Of a stretch of 52,497 bases of DNA, positions 3,689 through 46,087 are shown piece after piece (within the stretch, counting starts at the first letter, position 1; each line of letters opens with the position of its first letter). The position numbers and the translations under genes are program-made. Below the pieces are notes generated by a model, which did not search any database, was not told the DNA's origin, and saw only the letters and a list, made by a program, of their open reading frames with translations. The stretch comes from a virus: positions 1 through 52,497 of the IMG/VR virus record IMGVR_UViG_3300048921_000300; one strand, written 5' to 3'.

Positions 3689-3879
3689 GCGCCGAGCCAA
3701 TCGCGCAGGAGCGGGAGAGCGTAGTTGACGGCGAGCAGCGCGAGCGCGAGGCCGGCGCCGCCGATCAGGGCGCGCGCGCCATCCAATATGTCGGCGCGGA
3801 CGGAGGCGCGCGGCGCGCAGGCCGGGCAGGTGCAGCGGCCAGAGCGGGTAGCGGAACGGGCGACGAAGCGGCTGGCCAT
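3685..3879 (-). CDS. Small membrane protein with Cys pair
   Basis: 64 residues: a basic, Cys-containing N terminus (RSGRCTCPACAPR, with C-x-C and C-x2-C spacing) followed by one hydrophobic segment (about residues 37-57, ALIGGAGLALALLAVNYALPLL). The positive-inside rule predicts the N terminus in the cytoplasm. It starts one base after the stop of the upstream gene and its own stop overlaps the next start (ATGA). Function unknown. Confidence 0.5.
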   Translation of the reverse strand: MASRFVARSATRSGRCTCPACAPRASVRADILDGARALIGGAGLALALLAVNYALPLLRDWLGA

Positions 3880-3880
3880 C

Positions 3881-4363: not shown

Positions 4364-4366
4364 GGT

Positions 4367-4385
4367 CGCCTCCTTCGTGGAGGCG
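4367..4385 (-). promoter_or_regulatory. Stem-loop occluding the ribosome-binding site of the leftward operon
   Basis: In the minus-strand transcript CGCCTCC, loop ACGAA, then GGAGGCG form a perfect seven-base-pair hairpin. The 3' arm contains the Shine-Dalgarno GGAGG of the 4363 gene, so folding would hide it. The hairpin begins just downstream of the predicted start of transcription. Confidence 0.55.
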
Positions 4386-4432
4386 ATATAGCGCTATGAA
4401 ACGTAGCGCGTCAATATGTTTTGTAGCGCGCA
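4386..4432 (-). promoter_or_regulatory. Predicted leftward promoter PL with repressor operators
   Basis: On the minus strand TTGACG (4414-4409), 17 bases, then CTATAT (4391-4386) make a good sigma70-type promoter. Overlapping it are three sites related to the palindrome GTAGCGCTAC of the repressor/Cro interval: ATAGCGCTAT at 4388-4397 on the -10 element, and the half-sites GTAGCGC at 4403-4409 (touching the -35) and at 4423-4429. Binding there would block transcription of the early-left operon in the lysogen. Confidence 0.65.
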
Positions 4433-4433
4433 G

Positions 4434-4982
4434 CTATTGGGTGCTGAGATATCCCTGTTCATTGTTGCGGGCGCAGGCTCCAATCATCATCCAGTCATGA
4501 CCGCCGTATCGCGCATACTCATGGTAACAGCCGGCAAGTGAGCTGCGCATGCCTTCATCCCCCCGATAGCGGTTCCAGATAGCTATAAAGTCGTGGGCTC
4601 CCTGGTATGCATTACGAGTGCATGCACCCCTCATCATGTAGTCATTTGGATATTCGCCGGCACAATAGGTTTTGGTTTCGCGCTTAATGCGCTTTTCGGA
4701 GGCATCGTCAGCTGTAAATATCGGTGTTGGCTGCGTAAGATTTAACGATGTCAATTGTGAAACAGGCGCGGATCTGGGAATAATCATTGGAACGATGAAC
4801 CAGAAGACGAAACCCAAGATTGCGAATGTAACAATTACATTTCCAACCGAAGATATTATTTTTGCCCGCTGGCGATCCGCAATTTCTTGCGCGCTGAAAT
4901 TGTGGTTGCAAAAGCGGCAGAGTTTTGCCTCAAATCGTACTGGCTCGGCGCAGCGTGGACATGGTTTGTGACCTGCCTTCAC
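4434..4982 (-). CDS. Zinc-ribbon, single-pass membrane protein with duplicated Cys motif, expressed with the repressor
   Basis: 182 residues from the GTG at 4982, chosen because it overlaps the repressor stop (GTGA) and has GGGAGG upstream; a TTG 18 bases earlier is the alternative. Order: an N-terminal zinc ribbon (C-x2-C...C-x2-C, CPRC and CRFC), one transmembrane helix (about 47-68), a Thr/Pro-rich linker, then a C-terminal domain with a two-fold internal repeat: C-x3-EY...D(Y/W)MM-x-GAC-x-RN...QG at about 107-128 and 152-177. The paired cysteines suit an extracytoplasmic domain. Lower GC than neighbours. Co-transcription with the repressor means lysogen expression, fitting superinfection exclusion or another conversion trait; this is inference. 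Confidence 0.7.
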   Translation of the reverse strand: MKAGHKPCPRCAEPVRFEAKLCRFCNHNFSAQEIADRQRAKIISSVGNVIVTFAILGFVFWFIVPMIIPRSAPVSQLTSLNLTQPTPIFTADDASEKRIKRETKTYCAGEYPNDYMMRGACTRNAYQGAHDFIAIWNRYRGDEGMRSSLAGCYHEYARYGGHDWMMIGACARNNEQGYLSTQ

Positions 4983-5686
4983 ATGCGCCTCCCGACCCAA
5001 ATAACCTTTCCGACGATATATACATCATCATAGTCAGCTTCCTGTGGCGGCACCGCAGGGTTGTCGGAGAGAATAAGGTAACGGTCACCGCTGCTTCCTT
5101 TGATCCGCCTCAGTCGCTTGATCATTCCCGCGCCAGCATAGGTGAGTGCCCAGATCTGATCCTGCTGCGCGACGCGATTCTGCGCGGCATCGATCAGGAT
5201 CATGTCGCTCCGGAGCAAGGTCGGCTCCATGCTTTCGCCGTGGCCGGTCGCAAGAAACAGGCGACTGACTGGCGAGCGGGTGACGCTTCGCAGAAAATCA
5301 CGCTGAAAAGGGACGAAGCCGGTTTCGGGATAATCCTCGACGATTGCGCCGTCGCCCATCGCGTAACTGATGTCGACCTGACGAACGTACTCAATGCCGT
5401 ATTTCTCGACCAGCAGTTCTGGTGTGCCGAATTCTCCTGGGGGCGGCCGTTCGGGCGGTTCAGTGTCAGGAAGAGGTCCGCCACGCAATAACCAGTCAGT
5501 CGGTACGTTCAACTTTTGAGCGAAGGCGGACGCGTGTTTGGCGTAAGCATTCTGGTTATTTTCGTAGGCGCGATAGGTGACTTCCTTCATCTGCATTGCG
5601 CGCGCAAATTCCGCTGCTTCATCAAACACACGCTCTCGCGCCCACTTCAACCGCCCGCCCGGCGATTCGATATCGTAATCATCCAT
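4979..5686 (-). CDS. LexA/CI-type prophage repressor (S24 peptidase)
   Basis: 235 residues from the ATG at 5686. An N-terminal helix-turn-helix (about 8-70: RLKWARERVFDEAAEFARAM, then VTYRAYENNQN and LNVPTDWLLRG) is followed by a linker and a C-terminal S24 autoprotease domain. The catalytic serine is Ser152 in GESMEPTL and the general base Lys190 in GMIKRLRR. Such repressors are self-cleaved when RecA is activated by DNA damage, so the prophage is probably SOS-inducible. A longer frame to 5761 exists but would read through the operators; I reject it. Divergent from the Cro-like gene across the operator region. Confidence 0.93.
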   Translation of the reverse strand: MDDYDIESPGGRLKWARERVFDEAAEFARAMQMKEVTYRAYENNQNAYAKHASAFAQKLNVPTDWLLRGGPLPDTEPPERPPPGEFGTPELLVEKYGIEYVRQVDISYAMGDGAIVEDYPETGFVPFQRDFLRSVTRSPVSRLFLATGHGESMEPTLLRSDMILIDAAQNRVAQQDQIWALTYAGAGMIKRLRRIKGSSGDRYLILSDNPAVPPQEADYDDVYIVGKVIWVGRRM

Positions 5687-6835: not shown

Positions 6836-7584
6836 TGCAGCGCCAGGGGGGCAATCAGGGGGGAGACAGCGCCAGCGACGGACGGCCAGCGCCGGGGCGC
6901 GAAGATGCTCCGTCCGAGCTGATCGAATGGGCGCGCGGTGCCGCGCCAGGGGACGAGCTGGTCTATGCCGAGGGCGTGATCAGCGTGCGCGGCTCGGTTG
7001 CGGGGGTCCGCGCGGGCGCGCTGCAGGCGGCTGGGCTGGTCCATCTGTTCCAGACGGGGCGGCCGGGATGCCGCAACTATCATGCGCGGCGCACCTCGAA
7101 ACCGTTCGCTGAGGCGCGGCGGCTCGCCCCGCTCGCGCGTGCGGCGCAGCGGCGGGCGGAGCAGGAGACGGCGGGCGTACTGGGTGTGCTCAAGCGCGCA
7201 GCGCAGCGCGGCGAGACCTGCCCGAGCAACGGGACGATCGCGCGGATCGCGGGGCTGACCGACAAGGCCGTCGCTTCCTACCGCATCCGCTGCCTGCAGA
7301 GCGCGGGGTTGATCCAGGTCGACATGCTCCCGGCGGCGCCGTTCCGGGTGGTCACGATCATCGCGACCGGCATGTCCACCAGCGCGGGGGCGATCGAGAG
7401 CCAGCCCGATCGCGGCGGTTCCGGGGCGCCTGAACTTGGGATGCTTCCGCCCGCTTCGATCTTTCCGCCGGCTCAAATTCAGGCGCAGCCTGTCCAAACT
7501 CAGGCGCCGCCGGCGGCGCCAAAACAGCCGCGATCGCGCACGCGGGCATCGGCGGACCAGTCACCAAAAAGGGCAGAGGCATGA
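6835..7584 (+). CDS. Winged-helix DNA-binding protein (possible replication initiator or regulator)
   Basis: 249 residues from the ATG at 6835, which overlaps the CII-like stop. A first segment (about 25-90) contains VYAEGVISVRGSVAGVRAGALQAAGLVHLF, itself a possible winged helix. A clear winged helix follows at about 108-165: VLKRAAQRGETCPSNGTIARIAGLTDKAVASYRIRCLQSAGLIQ with wing FRVVTII. The C-terminal 65 residues are Pro/Gln/Ala-rich and probably disordered. The CPSN...VTII unit recurs in the protein at 12873-13421, so the two may recognise related sites. Large winged-helix proteins in this slot are often replication initiators (lambda O-like); that role is inference. Confidence 0.62.
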   Translation: MQRQGGNQGGDSASDGRPAPGREDAPSELIEWARGAAPGDELVYAEGVISVRGSVAGVRAGALQAAGLVHLFQTGRPGCRNYHARRTSKPFAEARRLAPLARAAQRRAEQETAGVLGVLKRAAQRGETCPSNGTIARIAGLTDKAVASYRIRCLQSAGLIQVDMLPAAPFRVVTIIATGMSTSAGAIESQPDRGGSGAPELGMLPPASIFPPAQIQAQPVQTQAPPAAPKQPRSRTRASADQSPKRAEA

Positions 7585-7596
7585 TGGAGAGGATCG

Positions 7597-7707
7597 ATGA
7601 GCTTCCTGGGCGGGATGATCGTGGGCGCGATGCTGATGGTGTTGGGCATGGCGGTGGCCGTGACGATCGCGGTGCTGCGTTTCGCGGCAACGGGAAGGTC
7701 GCGGTGA
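7597..7707 (+). CDS. 36-residue single-transmembrane miniprotein
   Basis: MSFLGGMIVGAMLMVLGM... a nearly all-hydrophobic helix (about 4-29) ending in a short basic tail (RFAATGRSR), so N-out/C-in by charge. GGAGAGG precedes the ATG, and the stop overlaps the next GTG start as GTGA. Codons are GC-rich at third positions. Too short for most gene callers. Function unknown; comparable phage miniproteins inhibit host membrane proteins or cell division. Confidence 0.55.
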   Translation: MSFLGGMIVGAMLMVLGMAVAVTIAVLRFAATGRSR

Positions 7708-8183
7708 TTGATTGGCTGCTCGCCCGCGCCAAGGCCGTGATGGCGGCGCGCGAGCCCGATTTCGTGATCGGCGAGCCGCAGCGCCCCTATCTGCGGCGCT
7801 GGTTCATCATCCCGCGCAATCCGCTGTGCAACATCTACCTGCACGAGATCCTGCGCTCGGATGACGATCGCGCGCTGCACGATCATCCGTGGTGGAACTT
7901 CACAATCATCCTGCGCGGCGGCTATTGCGAACATACGATCGACGCCGGGGGCATCCATCATCGCCGCTGGCGCTGGCGTGGCGATATGAAGCTGCGCTGG
8001 GCGCGTGCCGCGCACCGGCTGGACGTGCCGCGTGACGGCGGGCCATCGACCCTGACGATGTTTTTCACCGGACCACGTATCCGGGCGTGGGGTTTCCACT
8101 GTCCCGATGCCGGATGGGTTCACTGGCAGGAATTTACGAAGGCGACGGATAAGGGTCAAATTGGCCGGGGCTGCGGCGAATGA
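7704..8183 (+). CDS. Cupin-fold phage protein
   Basis: 159 residues from GTG 7704 (GGGAAGG five bases upstream; GTGA overlap with the miniprotein). The central part has IYLHEILRSDDDRALHDHPWWNFTIILRGGY, with later HRLDVPRDGG and WGFHCPDAGWVHW. The H-x-H pair in a strand, followed by G-G-Y and a later His, matches a double-stranded beta-helix (cupin) metal site. Related proteins are frequent among phage early genes with no known substrate. The long arginine-rich frame upstream (from 7581) is a read-through of the previous region. Confidence 0.65.
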   Translation: MIDWLLARAKAVMAAREPDFVIGEPQRPYLRRWFIIPRNPLCNIYLHEILRSDDDRALHDHPWWNFTIILRGGYCEHTIDAGGIHHRRWRWRGDMKLRWARAAHRLDVPRDGGPSTLTMFFTGPRIRAWGFHCPDAGWVHWQEFTKATDKGQIGRGCGE

Positions 8184-8767
8184 GCAGCGTCATGAAGAGC
8201 GGCGTCGTCATCTCCACCAAGGAGACGGCCGGCACCTATGATGCGCTCGAAACCGCGAAGCCCGGCGAGCCGATCTTCGTGCTGCAGGGCGGCGACATGT
8301 TCGCGCCGGCGACGGTGCAGCATTGGGCCGATCTGGCGCGGCGGGCCGGCATGGCCGAGACCGACCAGGCCAAGGCGGTCAGGTTGCTGGAAAAGGCCTC
8401 GGCGGCGGAGATCGTCGGATGGACGATGCGGGCCTATCAGCGCGGCGAGGAGAGCGGGCAGGCGCAGGCCGAAAAGCGCGTTTCCTCCCAGGATGGGGTG
8501 ACGCTCGCCGACAATCAGGCCACGCAGCAGATGGTCGCCGCCACCGCCAAGCTCCACAATGCGGCGGCGCTGATCGAGGATGTGCGCGAGATGTTCACCA
8601 CCGCGCCTGCGGATGGGGTGAACGTCGCCCTGCGCGACGACATGGTCAAGACGTTGGGCGGCGTTCGTGATTTCGTCAACGACCTCGCCGCCGAGATCAA
8701 CCCGCGGAAGCCGCGCGAGGAGGTTCTCAACCAAGCCAGGATGGAGGCCGTGCATGTCACGAAGTGA
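8180..8767 (+). CDS. Hypothetical phage early protein
   Basis: 195 residues starting at an ATGA overlap. N-terminal half: YDALETAKPGEPIFVLQGGDMFAPATVQHWADLARRAGM, then a helical LLEKASAAEIVGWTMRAYQRGEE; the C-terminal half is a predicted helical bundle (ATAKLHNAAALIEDVREM...VRDFVNDLAAEINPRK). The N-terminal pattern recurs in uncharacterised phage proteins near replication genes, but I know of no activity. Overlaps the next gene by 14 bases. Confidence 0.6.
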   Translation: MSSVMKSGVVISTKETAGTYDALETAKPGEPIFVLQGGDMFAPATVQHWADLARRAGMAETDQAKAVRLLEKASAAEIVGWTMRAYQRGEESGQAQAEKRVSSQDGVTLADNQATQQMVAATAKLHNAAALIEDVREMFTTAPADGVNVALRDDMVKTLGGVRDFVNDLAAEINPRKPREEVLNQARMEAVHVTK

Positions 8768-23411: not shown

Positions 23412-24851
23412 ATGAAATTCGCTGAACAGATCAGCGCCTTCGAAACGAAGCGCGCCGCACTGGTGGCTGCCAACGAGGCCATCATGCAGAAGGCTGCCAC
23501 TGAGGGCGCGACCCTCGATGCCGCCGAGAAAGAGACTTTCGACGGCAACCAGGCCGATGTCGAGGAGATCGATGATCACCTCAAGCGGCTCCGCGCGATG
23601 GAGCGCGCCAGCGCGGTCGAAGCCAAGCCTGTCAATGGCGTGAAGACCGCCGAGCAAGGCTCTGCCGCCCGCGGTGGCCAGATCATCGTCAAGCAGCAGC
23701 CGAAGCTCGATCCAGGCATCGAATTCGCCCGCCTCGTCAAGTCGATGGGCGCCGCCAAGGGCGATATGAGCCGCGCCTATCGGATCGCGGTCAATCGCTA
23801 CGGTGCGGACAGCAATGCGGCCGGTGCGTTGAAGGCGATTGATGAACGCGGCGGCGACGCTCTCGCGTTCCTGGGCCTTGAGGCCTTCCACAAGGCAGCC
23901 GTCGGCGCTGGTTCGGCGATCTCCGGCAACTGGGCCTCCGACCTGATCCTGACCGAAGGCGGCGCTTTCGCGGATTTTGCGGAATATCTCCGCCCGCAGA
24001 CGATCGTCGGCAAGCTCAACCTGCGCCAGGTGCCGTTCGATACCGCGCTCGGCATCTCCACCAGCGCCGGCGCCGGCTACTGGGTCGGCGAGGGCCAGCC
24101 CAAGCCGCTCACCAGCTTCAACTTCGACAAGACGACGCTGACGCCGCTGAAATGCGCCAACATCGTCGTGTTGACGCAGGAGCTGCTGATGCGCGAATCG
24201 GCGAATGCCGAAGTGATGGTGCGTGACGAGATGCGCAACGCGCTCGTCCAGCTCATCGACACGGCGTTCATCGATCCGACCAATGCCGGTACGGCGAATG
24301 TCAAGCCGGCCTCGGTCGCAAACGGCGCGTCGCACTCGGCGGCGTCGGGCACGGGCGATGCCGACGATGTCCGCGCGGATCTGCGCTCGCTGATCAACGA
24401 GTTCATCGTCGCCAACCAGCAGGGCGGCGAGATCGTGATCGTGATGCGGGCGACCGATGCGCTCGGCGCCAGCATGATGGTGAACGCGCTCGGCCAGCCC
24501 GAATTCCCCAACATCAGCATGAGCGGCGGCGCGCTGTTCCCCGGCCTTTCGGTCATCACCTCGCAGGTGGTTCCGGCGGGCACGATCATCGCGCTGCAGC
24601 CGAGCGAGATCTTCCTCGCCGACGATGGCGGCTTCAAGGTCGACATGTCGACCGAGGCGTCGCTGCAGATGCTCGACAATCCTACCAACGCATCGGCGGA
24701 TGGCACGGCGACGTCGATGGTCTCGATGTTCCAGACGAACAGCGTGGCTTTCCTCTGCGAGCGGATCATCAACTGGAAGAAGCGCCGCTCCACCGCCGTC
24801 GCCTATCTCACCGGCGCCGCATGGGGCGGATCGGTCAACGATCTGAGCTGA
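23412..24851 (+). CDS. Major capsid protein (HK97 fold)
   Basis: 479 residues from the ATG at 23412. The N-terminal 80-110 residues are a charged coiled coil (SAFETKRAALVAANEAIMQKAA...ADVEEIDDHLKRLRAME), the delta scaffold domain removed by the protease. The HK97 shell domain follows with SAISGNWASDLILTEGGAFADFAEYLRPQTI, a long acidic helix (LLMRESANAEVMVRDEMRNAL), and a C-terminal MFQTNSVAFLCERIINWKKRRSTAVAYL. The next gene lies 60 bases downstream. Confidence 0.95.
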   Translation: MKFAEQISAFETKRAALVAANEAIMQKAATEGATLDAAEKETFDGNQADVEEIDDHLKRLRAMERASAVEAKPVNGVKTAEQGSAARGGQIIVKQQPKLDPGIEFARLVKSMGAAKGDMSRAYRIAVNRYGADSNAAGALKAIDERGGDALAFLGLEAFHKAAVGAGSAISGNWASDLILTEGGAFADFAEYLRPQTIVGKLNLRQVPFDTALGISTSAGAGYWVGEGQPKPLTSFNFDKTTLTPLKCANIVVLTQELLMRESANAEVMVRDEMRNALVQLIDTAFIDPTNAGTANVKPASVANGASHSAASGTGDADDVRADLRSLINEFIVANQQGGEIVIVMRATDALGASMMVNALGQPEFPNISMSGGALFPGLSVITSQVVPAGTIIALQPSEIFLADDGGFKVDMSTEASLQMLDNPTNASADGTATSMVSMFQTNSVAFLCERIINWKKRRSTAVAYLTGAAWGGSVNDLS

Positions 24852-24910
24852 TCGTCCTGAGTATGGAGGGGCCGGTTCGCGCCGGCCCCTCAAAAATTGG
24901 AGTTTTGCGC

Positions 24911-25171
24911 GTGGATCTGATCGCTGCCAAACCGATGCGCTACAAGACGCGCCGGCTGATGCCGGGGGATGCCTTCCAGGCCGACGACCGCATGGGTCGC
25001 ATCCTGGTGAAAGCGAAGCGCGCGCGTGTCGACGCTGCTCATGCTCCCGCCATGCGCGCCGCGCCCGACGATCTCGCCACGCTGCGCGCCGAATATCGCG
25101 CCAAATTCAAGAAGAACCCAGGACCATCGTGGAATGCCGCGATCCTGCGCGAAAAGATTGCCGCCGCATGA
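24911..25171 (+). CDS. Small protein after the capsid gene
   Basis: 86 residues, GTG start at 24911 with TGGAG about 10 bases upstream. The N-terminal part is a small beta segment (MRYKTRRLMPGDAFQADDRMGRILVKAKRA), the C-terminal part a helical LATLRAEYRAKFKKNPGPSWNAAILREKIAAA, akin to SAP-like or Rho-N-like helix-extended-helix motifs. It may be a minor head protein by position. Not a recognised family. Confidence 0.6.
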   Translation: MDLIAAKPMRYKTRRLMPGDAFQADDRMGRILVKAKRARVDAAHAPAMRAAPDDLATLRAEYRAKFKKNPGPSWNAAILREKIAAA

Positions 25172-25335
25172 GAATTCCTAGACCAGTACCACTTCCCCAG
25201 GATGTGGCGACATTACGGGAAGCTGCAAAATTGCTAGCCATGTCTGCTGTAAAAAATGAGCAGCAAGCGGATGAATATCTGAATGCCGCTCGCAAATGCT
25301 TCAACCTGAGCGATGAAATGCTTGGCCAGAGATGA
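25168..25335 (+). CDS. 55-residue helical protein
   Basis: Starts at an ATGA overlap and ends overlapping the methyltransferase start. Sequence MRIPRPVPLPQDVATLREAAKLLAMSAVKNEQQADEY... is a single amphipathic helix pair. Lower GC than its neighbours. Function unknown; opens the inserted modification module. Confidence 0.52.
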   Translation: MRIPRPVPLPQDVATLREAAKLLAMSAVKNEQQADEYLNAARKCFNLSDEMLGQR

Positions 25336-25925
25336 CCACATCGCTCGCCTATCGCAATCATGAGGCCGCGATCCTGCGCGGCGACGTGCCCGAAAAATAT
25401 ACCCGCCTGCTTCCGCACATTCCCGGCGATCGCATCATAGAATTCGGATCGGCCGAAGGCGTGCTCGCGCTCATGCTGGCCAGGCAGGGCAAGTCGGTCA
25501 CCGCGATTGAAGCTAATCCCGAACGCCATGCCGCCGCGCTCGCGCTGCGCGACCAATGGACCCAAAACGGCCTGATCGATGGCGGTGAACCGTGCTACGT
25601 GTTGGGCAGCGCGGTTATTGCATCGCTGCAAATCAATCCCGGCACCTTCGACACGCTCGTCGCGGTGCGGATGATCTATTATCTGCGCGAGGATCTCGAC
25701 ACGGTCTTCGCCGCCGTCGCCGAGAAAATCCCCAACGTCGTCCTCTGCGGCAACCGCAACCGCGCGGTGCGCTGGCACGCCGGCAATCCGCACGAGGGGC
25801 TGGGCGAATATAATTTCTACGCTTCGGCCGAGGGGATGCGCGCGGTGCTCACCCGCCACGGCTACCGCATCGTCGATCAGGTGCTCGATGGCGATCCGAT
25901 CGTCGTCGGCCGGAAGGATGGCTGA
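25332..25925 (+). CDS. SAM-dependent class I methyltransferase
   Basis: 197 residues. Rossmann motif I IIEFGSAEGVLALML (35-49) and acidic loop IEANPERHAAAL after strand 2 (Glu60). Later VRMIYYLREDL is the motif IV region and RHGYRIVDQVLDGDPIVVG the C-terminal strands. The substrate is not apparent; it lacks an NPPY/SPPF DNA-methylase motif, so protein, sugar or lipid methylation is more likely. It forms a cluster with another methyltransferase, a ParB-like protein and a glycosyltransferase. Confidence 0.8.
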   Translation: MTTSLAYRNHEAAILRGDVPEKYTRLLPHIPGDRIIEFGSAEGVLALMLARQGKSVTAIEANPERHAAALALRDQWTQNGLIDGGEPCYVLGSAVIASLQINPGTFDTLVAVRMIYYLREDLDTVFAAVAEKIPNVVLCGNRNRAVRWHAGNPHEGLGEYNFYASAEGMRAVLTRHGYRIVDQVLDGDPIVVGRKDG

Positions 25926-26421
25926 TGCGTTGGTGGAGAATGCAGCCGTGGCCGATGTCTTCTGGCTCGATCCGGCCCGCATCCGCTTCAAGATCAGCCC
26001 CTGTGCCGATCTCTCCGGCCGCGTCGGCGGCGATTGGGATCTCGATCGCCGCTTCCCGCTTGGCGATGCAGTCAAGCATCGCGCGATCGTCCAGCGCTAT
26101 CGCGAGGGCCGCCGCTGGCCCGAGACCGACCTGTTCCGGGAGGCTTATGCGCCCCGCCTCGCGGCTGGCCAGTCGATCCGCGGCGTCGGGACGATGGGCG
26201 AGCTCGTCGCCCAATATGAGGACCGGGTCGACGCGATGTTCGCAAGCCTCGCGCGCGAGGGCTTCCGCGCCGATCGCGGGCCGCTGCCGCGGCTATTCGT
26301 CGGTCGCGACGGCGACATCTTCATCGGCAACCAGGGCAATCACCGCCTCGCCATGGCGCAGCTGCTCGAACTGAAATCGATCGCCGGAAGGATCACATGC
26401 AGGCACAGCTTGAATCGATAG
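25918..26421 (+). CDS. ParB/sulfiredoxin-fold-like protein
   Basis: 167 residues from the ATG at 25918 (GGAAGG upstream, overlaps the previous stop by eight bases). The C-terminal part LPRLFVGRDGDIFIGNQGNHRLAMAQLLEL fits the ParB-type G-x-x-R/HR motif (GNHRLAMA) that binds nucleotides in ParB/Srx folds. The N-terminal part holds RFPLGDAVKHRAIVQRYREGRRW. Similar proteins occur beside glycan-modifying genes in several genomes. Activity unknown. Confidence 0.6.
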   Translation: MADALVENAAVADVFWLDPARIRFKISPCADLSGRVGGDWDLDRRFPLGDAVKHRAIVQRYREGRRWPETDLFREAYAPRLAAGQSIRGVGTMGELVAQYEDRVDAMFASLAREGFRADRGPLPRLFVGRDGDIFIGNQGNHRLAMAQLLELKSIAGRITCRHSLNR

Positions 26422-27347
26422 TGGCACCGGCGCTGCCCGAGGCCATGCCGCACATCCCGGCGATGACGACCGAGGCCGAACGCTCACTCTATTACCGGCT
26501 GGTGCGCGAGAATGCGCATCGCGGCGCGGTGGTCGAGCTGGGGGCATGGCTCGGCGCCTCCTCGGCCTGGATCGCGGCGGGGATGCGCGACAGCGGCACC
26601 GGCGGCAAAGCCCATGTCTACGATCGCTTCCGTTCCAAGCCCGGCCACGCCGCCAAGGTCGCCGCCTTCTACGCCAATCATGGCGGGGAGGGGGAGATGG
26701 TGCTGGGCGATTGCGAGCGCCAGTTCCGCGCCAATCTGGGGCCGCTGCTCGATCATGTCGAGATCCATCGCGGCGAGATCGCCGAGATCGAATGGACCGG
26801 CGGCCCGATCTCGGTCCTGATCACCGATGCGCCCAAGCGCGTGCCGGAGATCTCGGCGGTACTCACCCGCCTGCGCCATGCGCTGATGCCTGGAGCGATC
26901 ATGGCCTGGCAGGATTTCTGCCACTTTCCCAGCTACGAGATCCCGGCGTGCTTGTACCGGCTGCGCGATCATCTCGAATTTGTCGAGGCGGCGGTGCCGG
27001 GGACGACTTTGGCGTTTCGGGTCACTTCGTCCTGGGATGCGGAAGAGGTTTCACCGAAGGCCTTGGCGGTCGATCGCTGGACGTTCGACGAAATCACCTG
27101 TGCCTGGGGTTATTGGCTGCGTATGGTCGCGCCCGAGAAGGCGGCGCTGTTCAGCTGCGGCGCGCTGCTGTTTCTCTGCGACATCGGCCTGCCTGACGAG
27201 GCGAGATTCTGGCTGGGCGGTGTCTACGCACAGCACGCCGAGGCGATCCTGCCGAAATGGCGCTATCTGCGCGCACAGCGGCCCGATCTGGTGCGCCGCT
27301 ACGCGCCTCTATTCGATTTTCTGCGCCGCGAGGGCGCGCTGGACTGA
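26397..27347 (+). CDS. SAM-dependent methyltransferase, sugar O-methyltransferase-like
   Basis: 316 residues, start supported by GGAAGGA. Motif I VVELGAWLGASSAWIA (45-60), then AHVYDRFRSKPGHAAKVAAF, the acidic/aromatic loop. DAPKRVPEISAVLTRLRHALMPGAIMAWQDF (about 147-178) is a motif IV-V region with Asp and the later DF typical of TylF/MacroCin-type or Methyltransf_24 enzymes. A C-terminal helical extension of about 110 residues has no recognised domain. Overlaps the ParB-like gene by 25 bases. Confidence 0.75.
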   Translation: MQAQLESIVAPALPEAMPHIPAMTTEAERSLYYRLVRENAHRGAVVELGAWLGASSAWIAAGMRDSGTGGKAHVYDRFRSKPGHAAKVAAFYANHGGEGEMVLGDCERQFRANLGPLLDHVEIHRGEIAEIEWTGGPISVLITDAPKRVPEISAVLTRLRHALMPGAIMAWQDFCHFPSYEIPACLYRLRDHLEFVEAAVPGTTLAFRVTSSWDAEEVSPKALAVDRWTFDEITCAWGYWLRMVAPEKAALFSCGALLFLCDIGLPDEARFWLGGVYAQHAEAILPKWRYLRAQRPDLVRRYAPLFDFLRREGALD

Positions 27348-27362
27348 CCGGGAGGAACACGC

Positions 27363-27641
27363 ATGCCATCGGAAATCCTTGCCGTGGGGAGCGGCGCGGC
27401 GGCGTCGGGGGATGTCACCATCGGCGCGGGCGAAGCCTTGACCGTCTGCCTCAAGGATGGCGGCGGCACCGATCGCGCCCCGAACGGCAACGTCGCGATC
27501 CAGCTCAAGGATGATGACGGCGCTTACTGGACGGTCGAGACACTGCGCAGCGGCAAGCCCGCGATCATTTTGGCGGGACCGGGCACCTATCGCTTCGCCC
27601 GCCGCAAGGGCGCGGCCGCCTGCGGGGTGTTCAGTGGCTGA
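27363..27641 (+). CDS. Small beta-rich protein, possible virion decoration
   Basis: 92 residues, GGGAGGA upstream. The sequence is a run of short strands: VGSGAAASGDVTIGAGEALTVCLKD, NVAIQLKDDDGAYWTVETL, PAIILAGPGTYRFARRKG. It resembles small jelly-roll or Ig-like decoration proteins often seen between phage head genes. Assignment by pattern only. Confidence 0.55.
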   Translation: MPSEILAVGSGAAASGDVTIGAGEALTVCLKDGGGTDRAPNGNVAIQLKDDDGAYWTVETLRSGKPAIILAGPGTYRFARRKGAAACGVFSG

Positions 27642-27810
27642 TTTCGCCCAGCCATTGGCGCGGCCGATGGCTGGGCCCGTGGTGGCAGGCGTGCGCGACT
27701 TGTTGCCCGTCCTCGGGTCATCGGGCGGCGGCGGTTCATTCGATCTGCTCGAACTCGACGGCGAGCAACTTCAACTCGATGGCGAAGATCTGGCCTTGGG
27801 GGACAGTTGA
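27634..27810 (+). CDS. 58-residue acidic protein
   Basis: GTG start at 27634, overlapping the preceding stop by eight bases. Gly/Pro-containing N terminus, then SFDLLELDGEQLQLDGEDLALGDS, an acidic repeat with period five to seven (ELDGEQLQLDGEDLAL). Similar short acidic repeats are frequent in sphingomonad phage head regions. Function unknown. Confidence 0.52.
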   Translation: MADFAQPLARPMAGPVVAGVRDLLPVLGSSGGGGSFDLLELDGEQLQLDGEDLALGDS

Positions 27811-28493
27811 TGACGATAGACATTCAAAGTCCTGGAATGAAAGAGGCCGATCTTTCGGCGGCGCTGCAGGCGTTGGTTGGCTTCAAGGTCCATCCTCTCT
27901 CGCTGACCTCTGATCAACTCAACCATCTCCATAGCGCCCCGGTCGAGATCGTTCCCGCGCCAGGTGCAGGTAAAATCGCCATCCCGCTCAAGCTGATCAC
28001 TTGCGAGAAGTTCAATAGTGTTCAATATCAGATGGTTTGTTTGACTTCATGGCCGACGCCGGATTCTGTCTACATCAGGGAGACCGAAGATTATACTTCT
28101 GTCCATGATTTCACCGCGATAACCTTCGATACCGTTGATAAAGTCAACCAACCGATCACACTCTCCACCGACGCGGATCAAATTGATTTTGGTGTGATTG
28201 CCACTGCCTCAGTCGGCGACGGCGGTTCCGGTTACTCCATCGGGGATACAGGCTCGATCGAAGCTGGCGGCTTTGACGCGGCCTACGAAGTCACCTCTGT
28301 GGACGGAGGCGGCGCAGTGACCGGATTTGCCCTGTCGGCTCCTGGCACCGGCTATCAAGCCGGAGCAGGACAGCCAACGTCGGTTAACACTGGAAGCGGC
28401 GACGGCGCCTTCACAATCGATGTGGATAGCATCACTCCCGGCGACGGAACTGCGCTGATCTATAGCCTTTACGCGGTTGTAACGGTGCCATGA
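27810..28493 (+). CDS. Glycine-rich structural protein, putative
   Basis: 227 residues from the ATG at 27810. The N-terminal 100 residues form a compact domain (ADLSAALQALVGFKVHPLSLTSDQLNHLHSAPVEIVP). The C-terminal half carries glycine-rich beta repeats: GDGGSGYSIGDTGSIEAGG, then GGGAVTGFALSAPGTGYQAGAG, GSGDGAFTIDV, a pattern found in virion fibre or decoration proteins. Base composition is more AT-rich than the flanking genes, suggesting a separate origin. Function inferred. Confidence 0.55.
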   Translation: MTIDIQSPGMKEADLSAALQALVGFKVHPLSLTSDQLNHLHSAPVEIVPAPGAGKIAIPLKLITCEKFNSVQYQMVCLTSWPTPDSVYIRETEDYTSVHDFTAITFDTVDKVNQPITLSTDADQIDFGVIATASVGDGGSGYSIGDTGSIEAGGFDAAYEVTSVDGGGAVTGFALSAPGTGYQAGAGQPTSVNTGSGDGAFTIDVDSITPGDGTALIYSLYAVVTVP

Positions 28494-28527
28494 CGCGCCC
28501 CGCCAGCCTGCCCGTGGCGAACCATAA

Positions 28528-29253
28528 ATGCTGACCGTCCTCTCCTGGCTCTGGGACCAGACCGGCGGGCGGACCACGTACACGCCCGAGCATGTCGCGA
28601 CCTGGGCCGCGATGGTGGCGCGCAATCTCGCGATGCCGCACCGGATCGCCTGCGTCACCGCCGCTGAGATCCCGTCGCATATCGAGCGGATCGCGCCGCC
28701 GGGGGAATTCGAGGATGTCGTCACGCGGCGCTGGACGAATGGGCGGCCGAACTGCTTTCGCCGGCTCGCGATGTTCCGTCGCGATGCCGCCGCGCTGTTC
28801 GGCGATCGCTTCGTCTGCATGGATCTCGATAGCGTGATCTGCGCCCAGCTCGATCCTTTGTTCGAGCGCGACGAGGATGTCGTGCTGTTCAAGGGCACCG
28901 CGCCGGGGCGGCCCTACAATGGCAGCATGATGCTGATCCGCGCCGGATCGCGCCCGCATGTCTATGAGGATTTCAGCCGCGAGGCGGCGGAGGCGGCGGG
29001 CGAGCGTTTCGTCGGATCGGATCAGGCCTGGCTCAGCCACGCGCTCGGCCCGGACGAACCCGTCTGGAGCGAGGCCGATCGGGTCTATTGGTATGGCGGC
29101 CAGTATAAGCGCGAGATGCGGCTCCGCCGCGCGAAGCCGCGCATCATCTTCTTCCCCGGCGGGATGAAGCCATGGCACGCGGTTGGCCAGTTCGAACCCA
29201 ATGTCATCAAACATTATCACGCGGGCGAGCCCGCAGCGCGGGAGGCGGCATGA
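28528..29253 (+). CDS. Glycosyltransferase (GT-A fold, GT8-like)
   Basis: 241 residues from the ATG at 28528. A DxD motif, FVCMDLDSVI (D99, D101), ends a strand as in GT-A enzymes that bind sugar nucleotides through a metal. PYNGSMMLIRAG, GSDQAWLSHALG and KPWHAVGQFEPNVIKHYH fit later GT8 motifs (N-S/G, DQ, H). No signal peptide or membrane segment, so it acts in the cytoplasm, perhaps on a virion protein or nucleotide-linked sugar. It lies in the cassette between capsid and portal. Confidence 0.78.
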   Translation: MLTVLSWLWDQTGGRTTYTPEHVATWAAMVARNLAMPHRIACVTAAEIPSHIERIAPPGEFEDVVTRRWTNGRPNCFRRLAMFRRDAAALFGDRFVCMDLDSVICAQLDPLFERDEDVVLFKGTAPGRPYNGSMMLIRAGSRPHVYEDFSREAAEAAGERFVGSDQAWLSHALGPDEPVWSEADRVYWYGGQYKREMRLRRAKPRIIFFPGGMKPWHAVGQFEPNVIKHYHAGEPAAREAA

Positions 29254-29432
29254 ATAGCATCGTCATCCTGATCCTGCTCTTCGCGGTCGCGGGCGCGGCG
29301 CTGATCGTGGCCGGCGTCGCGCTCCAGCTCGGCCTTGCGGCGGCGCTGATCTGCGCGGGGCTGTTCGCGCTCGGCGCGGCGCTGAGCCTGCGGCAGGGCC
29401 TGAGCCTCACGGATGGAACGGGCCGTGGCTGA
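29250..29432 (+). CDS. Two-helix small membrane protein
   Basis: 60 residues, ATGA overlap with the glycosyltransferase. Two hydrophobic segments (about 3-22 and 27-46) with little charge. Overlaps the portal start by 20 bases. Function unknown. Confidence 0.52.
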   Translation: MNSIVILILLFAVAGAALIVAGVALQLGLAAALICAGLFALGAALSLRQGLSLTDGTGRG

Positions 29433-30828
29433 ATCGCGCATGCTCTCGCTGCTGGCGGACGTGATCGCGCCTCGCCAGAAATCGCTCAACGCCGTGCCGG
29501 CCAGCCGCGGCTGGTGGCCGCTGGTGCGTGAGGGCTTTGCTGGCGCGTGGCAGCGCAACATCACCGTCCAGCCCGGCGAGGTGCTGGCCTTCCACGCCGT
29601 CTTCGCCTGCATGACGCTGGTCGCCTCGGATATCGCCAAGCTGCGCGTCAAGCTGATGGCGAGGGATGCGAACGGGATCTGGACCGAGACGACCAGCCCC
29701 TCCTTCTCGCCGGTGCTGCGCAAGCCCAATGGCTATCAGAACCGAATCCAGTTCTACGAAAACTGGATGCTGTCGAAGCTCTCGCGCGGCAACACCTACA
29801 TCTTGAAGCAGCGCGACGCGCGCGGGATCGTCACCGCGCTCTATGTGCTCGATCCGAACCGGGTGCAGCCGCTTGTCTCCGATGGCGGCGAGGTGTTCTA
29901 CCAGCTTCATGCCGATTATCTGAGCGATCTGCCGGATGCGGTGATCGTGCCCGCGCGCGAGATCATCCATGATCGCTTCAACTGCCTGTTCCATCCGCTG
30001 GTCGGCATCTCGCCGATCTACGCCAGCGGTCTCGCCGCCACCCAGGGCCTCAAGATCCAGAACAACAGCGCCACCTTCTTCGCCAACGGCTCCAAGCCCG
30101 GCGGCATCCTGAGCGCGCCGGGCCGGATCGAGGACGATAACGCCAGGCGGCTCAAGGAGTATTGGGACGAGAATTTCAGCGGCGACAATGCCGGCAAGAT
30201 CGCGGTGCTGGGCGATGGGCTCGAATATAAGGGACTTTCGGTCGATCCCGTCGACGCGCAGCTGATCGAGCAATTGAAATGGACGTCCGAGGTGGTGTGC
30301 TCCACCTTCCATGTGCCGCCCTACAAGATCGGGATCGGCCAGATGCCGACCTATAATAATATCCAGGCGCTCAACGTCGAATATTATTCGCAATGCCTGC
30401 AGGCGCATATCGAGGCGGCCGAGCTCTGCCTCGACGAAGGCCTCGGCATCGGCGACGGCGTTCCGATCGCTGGGAGCGGCGCCACCTACGGCACCGAATT
30501 CGATGTCGACAATCTGCTGCGGATGGATGCCGTGTCGCAGATGGAGGTGCTCGACAAGGCCAAAAACACCATGACCCCGAACGAGGCGCGCAAGAAGCTC
30601 GATCTGGTCGCGGTCAAGGGCGGAGATTCGGTCTATCGCCAGCAGCAGGATTTCAGCCTGGAAGCACTCGCCAAACGCGACGCCCAGGCCGATCCGTTTG
30701 CCAGCAAGGCGCCCACGGCTCCAGCGGCGGAACCTGCGGCGCCTCCGCCGACTGAAGCTGGCAACGATAACGAGATGGAACTGCAGGCTACCAAGGCGGT
30801 GATGGCCATGATGAAGGGACTGGCATGA
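29413..30828 (+). CDS. Portal protein (HK97 family)
   Basis: 471 residues. Portal signatures: VLAFHAVFACMTLVASDIAKLRVKLM, MLSKLSRGNTYILKQRD, VLDPNRVQPL, EIIHDRFNC, LIEQLKWTSEVVCSTFHVPPYKIG and NNIQALNVEYYSQCLQAHIE. The dodecameric ring is the DNA gate. The start is not certain: ATG 29413, GTG 29425 or ATG 29440. In most HK97-type phages portal precedes protease and capsid; here it follows 4.5 kb after the capsid, behind the modification cassette. Confidence 0.93.
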   Translation: MERAVAESRMLSLLADVIAPRQKSLNAVPASRGWWPLVREGFAGAWQRNITVQPGEVLAFHAVFACMTLVASDIAKLRVKLMARDANGIWTETTSPSFSPVLRKPNGYQNRIQFYENWMLSKLSRGNTYILKQRDARGIVTALYVLDPNRVQPLVSDGGEVFYQLHADYLSDLPDAVIVPAREIIHDRFNCLFHPLVGISPIYASGLAATQGLKIQNNSATFFANGSKPGGILSAPGRIEDDNARRLKEYWDENFSGDNAGKIAVLGDGLEYKGLSVDPVDAQLIEQLKWTSEVVCSTFHVPPYKIGIGQMPTYNNIQALNVEYYSQCLQAHIEAAELCLDEGLGIGDGVPIAGSGATYGTEFDVDNLLRMDAVSQMEVLDKAKNTMTPNEARKKLDLVAVKGGDSVYRQQQDFSLEALAKRDAQADPFASKAPTAPAAEPAAPPPTEAGNDNEMELQATKAVMAMMKGLA

Positions 30829-31736
30829 TGTTCGACGGCAAGGCGTTCGGCGAACAGATGGTCTCCATCGTCAAAGGCTATGTCGATCGAGTTTTCGCAA
30901 GCTTCAAATCCGATATCGACAAGGATATCGCCGAATTCCGCGCAAAGTTGCAGGCACTCGAAGCCAGCCCGCCGAAAGACGGCCGCGATGGCGTCGACGG
31001 GAAGGATGTGGACCCTGAACTGACCCGCGCCCTGATCGAGAAGACGGTCGCGGCTGCTGTTGCCGCCCTACCGCCGCCCGAACGTGGCGCGAAGGGCGAA
31101 CCTGGCGAACGGGGTGCCGACGGCAAGGATGGCGTGGACGGCAAGGATGCCGATGCCGATGCCATTCTCGATCAACTGATCAAGGCTGCGGTTCCGAGCA
31201 TCATTGCCGAGGTTGAGAAGGCGGTCGCGGCGCTGCCACCGCCCGAGCGTGGCGAGAAGGGTGATCCGGGTGAGCGCGGCGAGACCGGTGATCCGGGTCA
31301 GGACGGGAAGGATGGGACCGGTCTCGCCGATGCGCTGCTCGATCGCGACGGCCAGCTGGTGCTGACGCTCAGCGACGGCCGGGTCAAAACGCTCGGGGCT
31401 GTGGTCGGCAGGGATGGTGCGCCGGGCAAGGATGCGCCGCCGCCGTTCACGATCGACGATCTCGAATGCAGCGTGCTCGACGATGATCGCACCGTGCAGT
31501 TCTTGTTCCGCAGCGGCGAGCTGGAGCATGTCGTCCATCTCAAATGGCCGGTGGTGATCGATCGCGGCGTTTTCACCGAGAAGCAAACCTACGAAATGGG
31601 TGATGGCGTTACCTGGGCAGGCCATTTCTGGATCGCCCAGCGTGCGACCAACGCCAAGCCCGGATATCCAGATAGCGGCTGGCGGCTCGCGGTGAAAAAG
31701 GGCCGTGACGGCAAGGATGCCGGCCATGGCGCTTGA
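30825..31736 (+). CDS. Collagen-like repeat protein in the head-tail block
   Basis: 303 residues. A coiled N-terminal helix (about 1-45) is followed by Gly-X-Y blocks: GRDGVDGKD (near 53), GAKGEPGERGADGKDGVDGKD (near 87-108), GEKGDPGERGETGDPGQDGKDG (near 143-165) and GRDGAPGKDAPPP, separated by helices ending ALPPPERG. The C-terminal 90 residues form a beta domain (RGVFTEKQTYEMGDGVTWAGHFWIAQRATN). Collagen-like phage proteins usually make trimeric fibres; this may be a head or neck fibre. ATGATG start overlaps the portal stop. Confidence 0.75.
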   Translation: MMFDGKAFGEQMVSIVKGYVDRVFASFKSDIDKDIAEFRAKLQALEASPPKDGRDGVDGKDVDPELTRALIEKTVAAAVAALPPPERGAKGEPGERGADGKDGVDGKDADADAILDQLIKAAVPSIIAEVEKAVAALPPPERGEKGDPGERGETGDPGQDGKDGTGLADALLDRDGQLVLTLSDGRVKTLGAVVGRDGAPGKDAPPPFTIDDLECSVLDDDRTVQFLFRSGELEHVVHLKWPVVIDRGVFTEKQTYEMGDGVTWAGHFWIAQRATNAKPGYPDSGWRLAVKKGRDGKDAGHGA

Positions 31737-33791: not shown

Positions 33792-34223
33792 ATGGCACTC
33801 AAATCTCAGACGTCGACCGTCCATATTTCGAACGAGGACGCCGACAGCACCGCCTACGGGTCCGCGACCTTCGTCAAGGTCGGGCAGGTCACCTCGATCG
33901 GCGCGCCCTCGGGCGAGGCGGCGGACATCGACACCACCCATCTCGAATCGACGGCGAAGGAATATCTGGTCGGCCTGCCCGATAACGGCAATATCGAGAT
34001 CGCGATGAACGCGATTTCGGGCGATGCCGGCCATGACGAGCTGATCGCGGCGATGGATCTGCAGGAGCGCCGCTGGCTCCAGATCATCTGGTCGAACGGT
34101 GACATCTGGCACATCATGGCGCTGGTCAAGAAATATACCTGGAGTGCCGCGGTCGATGCCAAGATCGATGCGGCGGCCAGCTTCCGCACCTCGGGCTCGT
34201 GGACGCGGAGCGCGGTATCTTGA
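33792..34223 (+). CDS. Major tail (tube) protein
   Basis: 143 residues: FVKVGQVTSIGAPSGEAADIDTTHLESTAKEYLVGLPDNGNIEIAMN, RRWLQIIWSNGDIWHIMALVKKYTWSAAVDAKIDAAASFRTSGS. Length and the ID-THL-S-AKE motif fit tube proteins of lambda/HK97-type and gene-transfer-agent tails. Rings of it make the tail tube; the chaperone genes follow at once, as expected. Confidence 0.9.
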   Translation: MALKSQTSTVHISNEDADSTAYGSATFVKVGQVTSIGAPSGEAADIDTTHLESTAKEYLVGLPDNGNIEIAMNAISGDAGHDELIAAMDLQERRWLQIIWSNGDIWHIMALVKKYTWSAAVDAKIDAAASFRTSGSWTRSAVS

Positions 34224-43812: not shown

Positions 43813-45008
43813 TGATGATCAAACGCTTCCTCCCGCTGATCGCGCTGGCGATCGCCTCGGCGTCCTTCGCCGCCGACAAGCCGCTCGTGATGGAGAGCGG
43901 GCAGATCAAGCAACTGCCCTCCGCGACCAGCCTGCAGTTGCAGGCACCCACGACTGCGAACGCCAGCATCAACCTGCCGCACGGCACCGCGCCGACCTCC
44001 CCGACGAACGGCGATTGTTGGACGACGACAGGAGGTTTCTATTGCCGGATCAACGGCTCGACCGTGGGACCCTATAGCACCGGGTCGGGCAGCGGCAGCG
44101 TCACCAGCATTGCGACGTCCGGCCTCGTCACCGGCGGCACGATCACCAGCACGGGCACGATCAGCCTGTCGAACATCGGCTCCGGCGACGTCGTCGGCAA
44201 TTCCGGCGCATCGAGCGCGGCGCCTGCCGATACCACGCTGACCGCGATTATCGATCGGGCGATCGGGGGCACGCAGGGACAGATCCTTTACCGCGGATCG
44301 TCCACTTGGTCGGCCTTGTCGCCTGGCACGGCGGGCCAGGTTCTCCAGACTGGAGGCAGTGGCGCAAATCCCGGCTGGGCGACGCCGGCTGGCAGCGGCG
44401 GCGGTGGCGGTGGCGCCTATTCGGTGCCGGCTGTTGGTACATTCGCCTGGGTGAACCAGAGCACCTCGACGGCGGACCAGTTGACGAGCACCGGGCCGAT
44501 CCTGATGACGACGCCAAGCACCGGGCTGAACTGGCGCATCCTGAAAATCGCCATTCCCTCGACGCCTTACCGCGTGCGGGCGCTCCTGCGGGGCATGTCC
44601 ACCAGCGAGGCCCCCTCCGCCGCTTGGGCCAAGGGGCTCTATTTCTACGACGGCACCAAACTCGCTGGTATCGAGGCCTGCGTCGGCTGCGCAGGCACGG
44701 CGGTCGGGCAAACCCGCGTCGAGAAAATCACCAACGTCACGACGGACAGCAGCACGGTCACCAGCAACAATTATTATGGCAGTGCGCAGGTTCGCAACGA
44801 GGTCTTCTGGGCGCAGATCCGCGACGATGGAACGACGCTCTATTTCGATACGAGCCTCGATGGCGACAACTGGATCAACCTCACTAGCTTCTCCCGCGCA
44901 TCTTTCATCACGCCGACGCATATCGGCTGGGGCGGAGTCTCGAACAATAACGGCATCTTCGTCTCGCTGCTGGCCTGGACGGTGGATTCGACCGCAAGCC
45001 TGAATTAG
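43812..45008 (+). CDS. Fibre-like protein with Sec signal peptide
   Basis: 398 residues from ATGATG at 43812, overlapping the previous stop. It begins MMIKRFLPLIALAIASASFAADKP, a clean signal peptide with a likely cleavage after ASA-SFA. The mature part has fibre repeats (GSGSGSVTSIATSGLVTGGTITSTGTISLSNIGSGDVVG; QGQILYRGSSTWSALSPGTAGQVLQTGG), then a Gly-rich hinge and a C-terminal domain of about 190 residues, lectin- or DUF-like (RILKIAIPSTPYRVRALLRG; WAQIRDDGTTLYFDTSLDGDNW). A virion fibre would not usually carry an export signal. The stop overlaps the convergent acyltransferase. Confidence 0.78.
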   Translation: MMIKRFLPLIALAIASASFAADKPLVMESGQIKQLPSATSLQLQAPTTANASINLPHGTAPTSPTNGDCWTTTGGFYCRINGSTVGPYSTGSGSGSVTSIATSGLVTGGTITSTGTISLSNIGSGDVVGNSGASSAAPADTTLTAIIDRAIGGTQGQILYRGSSTWSALSPGTAGQVLQTGGSGANPGWATPAGSGGGGGGAYSVPAVGTFAWVNQSTSTADQLTSTGPILMTTPSTGLNWRILKIAIPSTPYRVRALLRGMSTSEAPSAAWAKGLYFYDGTKLAGIEACVGCAGTAVGQTRVEKITNVTTDSSTVTSNNYYGSAQVRNEVFWAQIRDDGTTLYFDTSLDGDNWINLTSFSRASFITPTHIGWGGVSNNNGIFVSLLAWTVDSTASLN

Positions 45009-46087
45009 CCGCTAACAGTTATCGCTTCCGTCGACTGACTTGTATTGGTTACCCGTAGCATATCTTTCGGCTTCATCCACATGGCGAGAGCGGCCCGGAC
45101 AGGTTCGTCGATATAGCGGAGCAAGAGATAGGCCATCGCGGCCACCGCAACGATCGTGCATGATGTGGAAGCGGCGTCGCCATAGCCAAGTGCCCTCGTG
45201 AGCATCACGACCGCGATCATCACAGGATAGTGCACACAATAAACCGGGTACGACATTCGGCCGAGAAAGGAACAGATCTTATCCATTGATCGCGGAACGG
45301 CGTAGGAGGCGCCAAGCCATAATATCATCGGGCTAATTGTTAGAGCGAAGATAAGATCCCGAGGCGCCCGCCATTTGTCTGGATCTTGCCAAAAAAAGAA
45401 GATCAAGACCGGCCACCCGACCACTGCAAGCAAGCTTCTTGGCGACCGCGGGCTGGAGCACGATCGTGCGATAAGTTGGCCTATGACGAAGGCATAGAGT
45501 GTTCGGAAGGCTCCGAAATAACCAAAGTGCCAGGCTGCTCCCAAGTTCAAAGTGTCGGCTATCTCGGTCCCGGCAACAACGAACAAGGCTGAGGCGAGGG
45601 CCACGATGAACAGGATCTTGTCGCGGCTCCGGCAGAGCACGAGACAGAACACCAGGCTGGCGCCGATCTCGAAGAGAAGAGACCACGATGGTGCGTTGAG
45701 TGGAAACAGATCGCGGCCCGACGGGAGCGCCGGCAGCATCAGGATGGCCAATCCCGAGGAAGCGGCCAATTGATCCGCCGAGAGAAAGTGAGGAATCCAT
45801 GGTGGTAGCAAGATCAAGGTTTGCACGAGGCCGAGAATCGCGCCGATCAAATACATTGGATAAAGCCGGATCAGGCGCGCCTGAATAAATCGAGCAGCGC
45901 TAAGACCTTGCTGAAGACTTTGCTCATAAGATCGGGTCAACACGAAGCCGCTGAGCACAAAGAAGAAATCGACGGCAAGATAGCCAGAGTTCACCACGTT
46001 GATGTCGAAGCTTCGTAGGTGAAAGAGAACGACTGCAATCGCGCCAATTCCGCGCAGGCCGTCGAGCCCATGATTTCTCTCATTCAT
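45005..46087 (-). CDS. Acyltransferase family 3 (OafA/YrhL-type O-antigen acetylase)
   Basis: 360 residues with about ten transmembrane helices. It opens MNERNHGLDGLRGIGAIAVVLFHL, the acyltransferase-3 signature (LDGLRG...FH), and continues with GYLAVDFFFVLSGFVLTRSY, FIQARLIRLYPMY and SWSLLFEIGASL. Such proteins acetylate cell-surface polysaccharide and, on prophages, change the phage receptor. It is antisense to the late operon and more AT-rich than its neighbours, both usual for a moron gene expressed from its own promoter in the lysogen. Confidence 0.9.
   Translation of the reverse strand: MNERNHGLDGLRGIGAIAVVLFHLRSFDINVVNSGYLAVDFFFVLSGFVLTRSYEQSLQQGLSAARFIQARLIRLYPMYLIGAILGLVQTLILLPPWIPHFLSADQLAASSGLAILMLPALPSGRDLFPLNAPSWSLLFEIGASLVFCLVLCRSRDKILFIVALASALFVVAGTEIADTLNLGAAWHFGYFGAFRTLYAFVIGQLIARSCSSPRSPRSLLAVVGWPVLIFFFWQDPDKWRAPRDLIFALTISPMILWLGASYAVPRSMDKICSFLGRMSYPVYCVHYPVMIAVVMLTRALGYGDAASTSCTIVAVAAMAYLLLRYIDEPVRAALAMWMKPKDMLRVTNTSQSTEAITVSG

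Follow-up and report, generated by a model that had tools for sequence, protein, structure and literature searches.

Three mycobacteriophages, Che8, Corndog and Myrna, are reported to glycosylate their virions (Freeman et al. 2023, as cited in PMC12363180, PMC12619734 and PMC10877033), and in Che8 glycans have been reported on the C-termini of the capsid and tail-tube proteins (PMC12619734, PMC12363180). Particle modification of this kind is so far shown only in a few mycobacteriophages. The locus described here lies in a stretch of viral DNA of 52,497 nucleotides (IMG/VR record IMGVR_UViG_3300048921_000300, positions 1 to 52,497, referred to in full as the window), a 52.5-kb temperate siphophage. 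Between its major capsid protein (MCP) and portal genes, the window encodes two S-adenosylmethionine (SAM) methyltransferases (MT1 and MT2), a ParB/sulfiredoxin-fold protein and a glycosyltransferase (GT) of GT8 fold. Judging from sequence, we consider it quite probable that this cassette serves for virion O-glycosylation at the C-terminal Ser of the capsid (..VNDLS) and of the tail tube (..RSAVS), with a sugar that is probably methylated. We favor this reading because the GT tracks the Ser/Thr ends, because the Che8 proteins end in Gly-Ser and because a Corndog-type cassette also lies in the head operon.

A conserved gene unit between capsid and portal

The first gene of the unit, MT1 (25332..25925, + strand), encodes a class I SAM methyltransferase of 197 residues that matches the Pfam family Methyltransf_23 (5e-8) and carries an invariant SAM motif, ExGSAEG; no specific sugar-methyltransferase match was found for it. 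MT2 (26397..27347, +; 316 residues) matches Methyltransf_24 above the cut-off (1e-7), and its relatives place it in the superfamily of TylF-like sugar O-methyltransferases: the TylF match itself is found only in related enzymes (those of the sampled locus L109 and of phage Dylan) and not in MT2 directly, but MT2 and the GT-linked, TylF-like enzyme of L109 are related by profile (hhalign 92%, E 5e-7). The gene between the two (25918..26421, +) encodes a protein of 167 residues with no Pfam or NCBIfam match, the AlphaFold model of which (predicted local distance difference test score, pLDDT, 92) consists of one small domain. Its top Foldseek matches, weak (E about 0.026-2, prob 0.2-0.9) but consistent, are nearly all sulfiredoxin, KorB, Noc, ParB or SbnI, and its relatives keep an invariant GNHR, corresponding to GxxR, the nucleotide/phosphate-binding motif of the ParB fold (PMC12704722). 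The helix-turn-helix (HTH) DNA-binding and dimerization domains of ParB partition proteins are absent. Profile searches against solved structures returned nothing useful for either this protein or MT2. The GT (28528..29253, +; 241 residues) has a GT-A fold nearest to LgtC and glycogenin of family GT8 (Foldseek E 4e-9, prob 1.00, with a model of pLDDT 87.5) and an invariant DxD motif, DLD in the window, as a metal site, its match to the Pfam GT8 profile PF01501 being below the gathering score (11.6 against 24.3 bits, E 0.21). The initial annotation, made from the letters alone, was thus right in placing two SAM methyltransferases, a probable ParB-fold protein and a GT8-like GT at these positions.

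Loci were collected by scans with MT2, the ParB-like protein and the GT and dereplicated to 77 clusters; L-numbers denote the sampled loci and F-numbers their protein families. Every dereplicated viral contig with the ParB-like gene (30/30) has the genes in the order MT1-ParB-MT2, and all four genes are present in 24 of these. Of the remaining six, five end before the position of the GT, leaving L050 as the one real exception without it. The conserved unit is therefore the four genes MT1-ParB-MT2-GT, and with 30 dereplicated contigs the linkage is beyond chance. The five-gene cassette first proposed, including small proteins, was rejected, since most relatives lack the beta-rich b92 (27363..27641, +), the acidic ac58 (27634..27810, +) and dec228 (27810..28493, +; a weak match to the head-decoration family phrog_9703, 2e-4), all three of which are variable and inserted between MT2 and GT, and since the small membrane protein that follows the GT (29250..29432, +; phrog_4810) has relatives in loci without a GT. 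The search for a shared order in other head operons hence succeeded for four genes and not for the small proteins, and the cassette is far from absent in relatives of the phage, even though close relatives lack the island.

In the window, the gene order is TerL, protease, MCP, g116, a 55-residue open reading frame (ORF), MT1, ParB-like, MT2, b92, ac58, dec228, GT, membrane protein and portal. The genes from capsid to portal are all encoded on the + strand and either overlap or are separated by no more than about 35 bp, and no sigma-70-like promoter or terminator scoring above chance was found inside the cassette stretch. The island is bounded upstream by g116 (24821..25171, +), a conserved small head-operon protein present also in phages without the island, and downstream by the portal gene (29413..30828, +). 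In relatives with 47-80% identical portals that have no island, the capsid and portal genes are 181-1257 bp apart; the spacing from capsid or g116 to portal is 1.1-4.7 kb with the GT alone and mostly 2.9-6.2 kb with the MT1-ParB-MT2 trio.

The GT by itself is commoner than the trio and occupies the same MCP-to-portal site, where its partners are interchangeable: the trio, a methyltransferase with a phosphoribosyltransferase-type protein and a GT2, a single TylF-like methyltransferase, or a small helical protein. The second of these sets (F18-F8-F7) lies upstream of the GT in L070, L071, L098, L099, L119, L126, L131 and L134, with not all three genes everywhere, and its phosphoribosyltransferase-type member has a C-terminal part that appears HAD-like from its sequence; the presence of this set at the same site suggests that a different sugar is made there. 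No tblastn match to MT1, the ParB-like protein or MT2 was obtained in 50,697 deposited phages, two of which, EBPR siphovirus 3 and Tetraselmis viridis virus S20, do have relatives of the GT, the one in S20 being part of a post-capsid glyco-island. Two pattern scans of 84,980 prokaryotic species genomes, each needing an exact short pattern, yielded nothing related to the ParB-like protein or MT2, so that a bacterial origin of the cassette is unsupported within the reach of these scans. A plasmid search gave a single weak GT match, in Bradyrhizobium.

Terminal residues of capsid and tail-tube proteins

The putative substrates in the window are the MCP (23412..24851, +; phrog_617), whose terminal codons VNDLS (24834..24848, +) end in the predicted glycosylation site, and the major tail (tube) protein (33792..34223, +; phrog_158), ending in ..RSAVS. 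Capsids of loci with the GT end in ..PAS, ..NDLS, ..TNT, ..NPS or ..NSS. After control scans had added GT-negative members of each protein family, a C-terminal Ser/Thr was found in 47/48 MCPs with a GT8-type GT against 12/64 without, 4 of the 12 belonging to trio contigs that end before the GT. When any transferase is counted and truncated loci are removed, the figures become 46/46 and 5/58 (Fisher p 3e-24, with no correction for phylogeny). GT status switches 11 times along an MCP tree from which the last 14 residues were excluded, and the tree yields 10 independent pairs, in 8-9 of which on average the Ser/Thr end goes with the GT and in none of which it goes the opposite way (sign test, median p 0.008).

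The same link is seen in other families. The unrelated capsid family F20 has a Ser/Thr end in 8/8 members with a transferase and 3/59 without, and the tail family F10 in 13/14 and 9/65, respectively; both proteins end in Ser/Thr in 29/34 loci with a transferase and in 1/80 without. Over all gene families, a high rate of C-terminal Ser/Thr is found chiefly in capsid and major-tail families, and it is rare elsewhere (portal, 3/54; TerL, 0/45; g116, 1/45), the cassette enzymes also being without the signal, such that the co-occurrence with the GT falls on exactly the capsid and the tail.

Some loci with Ser ends and no GT8-type gene carry another likely sugar transferase adjoining the capsid gene. 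L234 and L189 contain a Stealth-like transferase candidate (phrog_7999; 4328-5230 and 7571-8254, respectively) in the same slot between g116 and portal, the candidate of L234 having a C-terminal accessory domain common to many GT8-type GTs. In L354, a GT2 is accompanied by a relative of Che8 gp110. No transferase was found in the opened GT8-negative Ser-end loci L157, L168, L271, L332 and L388, and the contig of L172 ends early.

Che8 and phages with a GT of its gp110 family served as positive controls. The Che8 capsid ends in ..KTGS and its tail protein in ..SDGS, and among the other Che8 head and tail proteins examined, a Ser/Thr end is found only in the small terminase, which does not form part of the virion. 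Both proteins likewise end in Ser in phages with a GT of the gp110 family, namely Dylan (..LVGS/..KGDS), the Gordonia phage Fryberger (..YAGS/..EPAS) and prophiGD27-1 (..RAGS/..IAGS), and in the distant relatives Dubu and AGM5, which are not among the gp110 matches listed, neither protein set ends in Ser/Thr. A prediction written beforehand held for Poise, Neville and Mareelih, in the last for the capsid only, its tail-tube gene being unannotated.

Proposed function and alternative explanations

The sequence shows which genes are present, their fixed linkage, the GT8 fold, where the island lies and that the GT goes together with Ser/Thr ends on these two proteins; the glycosyl bond, the sugar, its methylation, the part played by the ParB-like protein and the benefit to the phage are what we infer from these findings. 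The cassette would be expressed together with the head genes, and the GT8-type transferase would use a host nucleotide sugar as donor and glycosylate the MCP and the major tail protein at their C-terminal Ser/Thr, subunits that would then be present in modified form in hundreds of copies per particle. MT2, being TylF-like, and MT1 probably O-methylate the sugar. A nucleotide is the probable ligand of the ParB/sulfiredoxin-fold protein, which probably takes part with MT1 and MT2 in the same tailoring step, by phosphorylation or by gating of methylation, and the outcome could be to shield or alter the particle surface. Glycosylation followed by methylation of the capsid or its decoration proteins had been suggested at the outset; the capsid remains a likely target and methylation is probable, whereas the decoration protein is dropped and the tail tube is added on account of the Ser/Thr ends.

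It is conceivable that the GT glycosylates virion proteins as proposed but that MT1 and MT2 methylate protein side chains or the C-terminal carboxylate instead of the sugar. Other proteins are known to be methylated at C-terminal residues, and the lack of a specific sugar-methyltransferase match for MT1 would fit; however, MT2 falls in Methyltransf_24, the GT-linked relative in L109 and the Dylan and Che8 enzymes match the sugar O-methyltransferase TylF, and the GT accompanies the trio wherever the contig shows it, except in L050, leaving this alternative unlikely though by no means negligible. That the Ser/Thr ends are a matter of capsid ancestry or are required structurally, with the GT link hitch-hiking, is improbable in view of the independent-pair test on the MCP tree and of the same link recurring in unrelated capsid families, tail-tube families and non-homologous GTs while being absent in other structural proteins, notwithstanding HK97 and some GT-negative phages that end in Ser without a known GT.

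Two further explanations place the target outside the virion proteins. The enzymes might alter a host surface polysaccharide, a lysogenic conversion function captured in the head operon, as the temperate nature of the phage (integrase, tRNA-Arg), the frequent seroconversion of hosts by phage GTs and a separate acyltransferase gene at 45005 with a possible function of this kind might lead one to expect; but no promoter of the cassette's own was detected, the GT and its partners occupy the same head-operon site in dozens of phages, and the link to C-terminal Ser/Thr is left unexplained, all of which makes such a function decidedly improbable. Still less credit is given to hypermodification of phage DNA bases by the GT, the ParB-like protein and the methyltransferases. 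No thymidylate/dCMP hydroxymethylase-like or other base-modification gene is present among the annotated or scanned genes, which do not comprise every ORF; the sole DNA-methylase match is a separate N6_N4_Mtase gene at 11905; and neither the head-operon position nor the link of the GT to the C-terminal residue of capsid and tail is predicted by it. What speaks for it is that phage GTs often glycosylate DNA (PMC12619734) and that ParB-fold proteins fused to methyltransferases occur in phages (PMC12704722).

Several observations weigh against virion O-glycosylation at the C-terminal Ser/Thr, or against the strength of the case for it. Related sequences do not count as independent observations, and the tree test comprises 10 pairs; F20 and F10 give only 4 independent pairs each, below significance; and the tail family F3 has only 17/24 Ser/Thr ends. 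L234, L189 and L354 were reclassified once their C-termini had been seen. Ser/Thr ends occur without a known transferase in L148, L155, L157, L168 and L180, and conversely phage S20 (L037) has a glyco-island with no Ser/Thr end. Among the predictions, Ava3 failed (..RKA), and mEp390 was predicted to be without the signature, yet both its proteins end in ..SGS. In HK97 (L407), the capsid (1029-2186) ends in ..FSSGS and the tail protein (3734-4438) in ..LTIS, with no GT annotated in the last 5.7 kb, so the signature is not sufficient by itself; these Ser ends may be a relic, the target of a host enzyme, or chance. Finally, action of MT1 and MT2 on the sugar is suggested by family resemblance.

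Taking both sides together, we lean towards the wider view that a C-terminal Ser/Thr, typically [Ala/Gly]-Ser-COOH, on capsid and tail tube is a general virion-glycosylation tag read by unrelated GTs (GT8-type, GT25-like gp110 and Stealth-like), that glycosylated virions would be predictable from genomes well beyond the mycobacteriophages, and that the sugar in the window phage would be finished by a trio that includes a ParB-fold enzyme. The data suggest that virion glycosylation extends widely among phages other than mycobacteriophages, that convergence has brought unrelated GTs to the same two C-termini, and that a simple sequence rule can predict the modification, with a bearing on phage immunogenicity, stability and receptor interactions. 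The terminus could also have value as a tool, being in effect a natural C-terminal protein-glycosylation tag, and the trio places a nucleotide-binding ParB fold in an apparent glycan pathway.

Some neighboring features and side observations may be added. TerL (21036, +) and the protease (22766, +) belong to the head region of the window, and a strong RNA hairpin without a U-tract lies 3' of the capsid gene (24866..24891, +). A collagen-like Gly-X-Y protein is encoded directly 3' of the portal gene (30825-31736) and has relatives in 51 sampled loci, with and without GT; it and the decoration protein were rejected as targets, the collagen-like protein being found also in GT-negative phages and having Ser/Thr ends in 3/45. 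Repressor and replication genes accompany the head and tail genes, and the integrase gene (184-1290) marks the phage as temperate. An Acyltransferase 3 gene (45005-46087, -) in the late region is a typical lysogenic-conversion candidate that could alter the host surface, and a gene for a LigD-type ATP-dependent DNA ligase (50772-51644, -) adjoins the tRNA-Arg at the right end (52354) and may be host DNA past the prophage end. The HK97-like Escherichia coli phage mEp390 (NC_019721; capsid, L404 3979-5136; tail, L404 6680-7150) carries two GT genes just before its genome end (L409 1725-3182 and 3716-4306) and is possibly a glycosylated coliphage. In the Gordonia phage Mareelih (L406, OP820470), the capsid, gp86, gp87 and the adaptor have a C-terminal Gly-Ser and two GT genes lie beside them, a hint that more than two of its virion proteins are glycosylated.

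Comparison with described phage systems

The locus is worth comparing with other phage systems in which the same enzyme families occur. Fusions of the ParB-CTPase fold with Methyltransf_23, enriched in phages (PMC12704722), combine the family of MT1 with the probable fold of its ParB-like neighbor in the window, which keeps GxxR; however, they are read as predicted DNA methyltransferases, whereas the window genes are unfused, overlapping neighbors in a probable glycan-tailoring setting. Tetraselmis viridis virus S20 (NC_020840) resembles the window phage in that its capsid gene is directly followed by a GT8-type homologue (38%), a methyltransferase and further GTs, but it has annotated sialyltransferases, no trio, and capsid and tail proteins without a Ser/Thr end.

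Closest in kind are Che8, Corndog and Myrna, which, like the window phage, encode their own GTs; glycans are reported on their capsid and tail-tube C-termini, and in Che8 both proteins end in Gly-Ser. Their TylF-type methyltransferase is fused or adjacent to GTs (Che8 gp108 is a GT2-TylF fusion). Dylan (NC_022325), used here as representative of the Corndog type, has an O-methyltransferase (TylF 8e-13) and three GTs (genes 32-35) within the head operon, as in the window, but with other GT families, one methyltransferase and a site between portal and protease. From the Dylan set and the Che8 fusion, methyltransferase-plus-GT sets belong to a known kind. In contrast to the window, the key GT of Che8 and Corndog is the GT25-like gp110/gp38 (phrog_854), no ParB-fold protein and no second unfused methyltransferase are seen, and the GTs of Che8 are found at the end of the genome and not within the head operon. 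The gp110 family has no detectable homology to the window GT (hhalign probability 0.4%), and a similar function would therefore be one of analogy and not of GT descent. The initial claim that no phage system with this set had been described consequently does not stand for the kind, but a set composed exactly like this one, with a ParB-fold protein and a GT8-type GT, appears not to have been described. As far as checked, the presence of a GT8-type transferase at this site, the strict linkage of the MT1-ParB-MT2 trio, the exchangeable tailoring sets at one head-operon site, and the C-terminal Ser/Thr signature across unrelated capsid, tail-tube and GT families are new relative to these systems.

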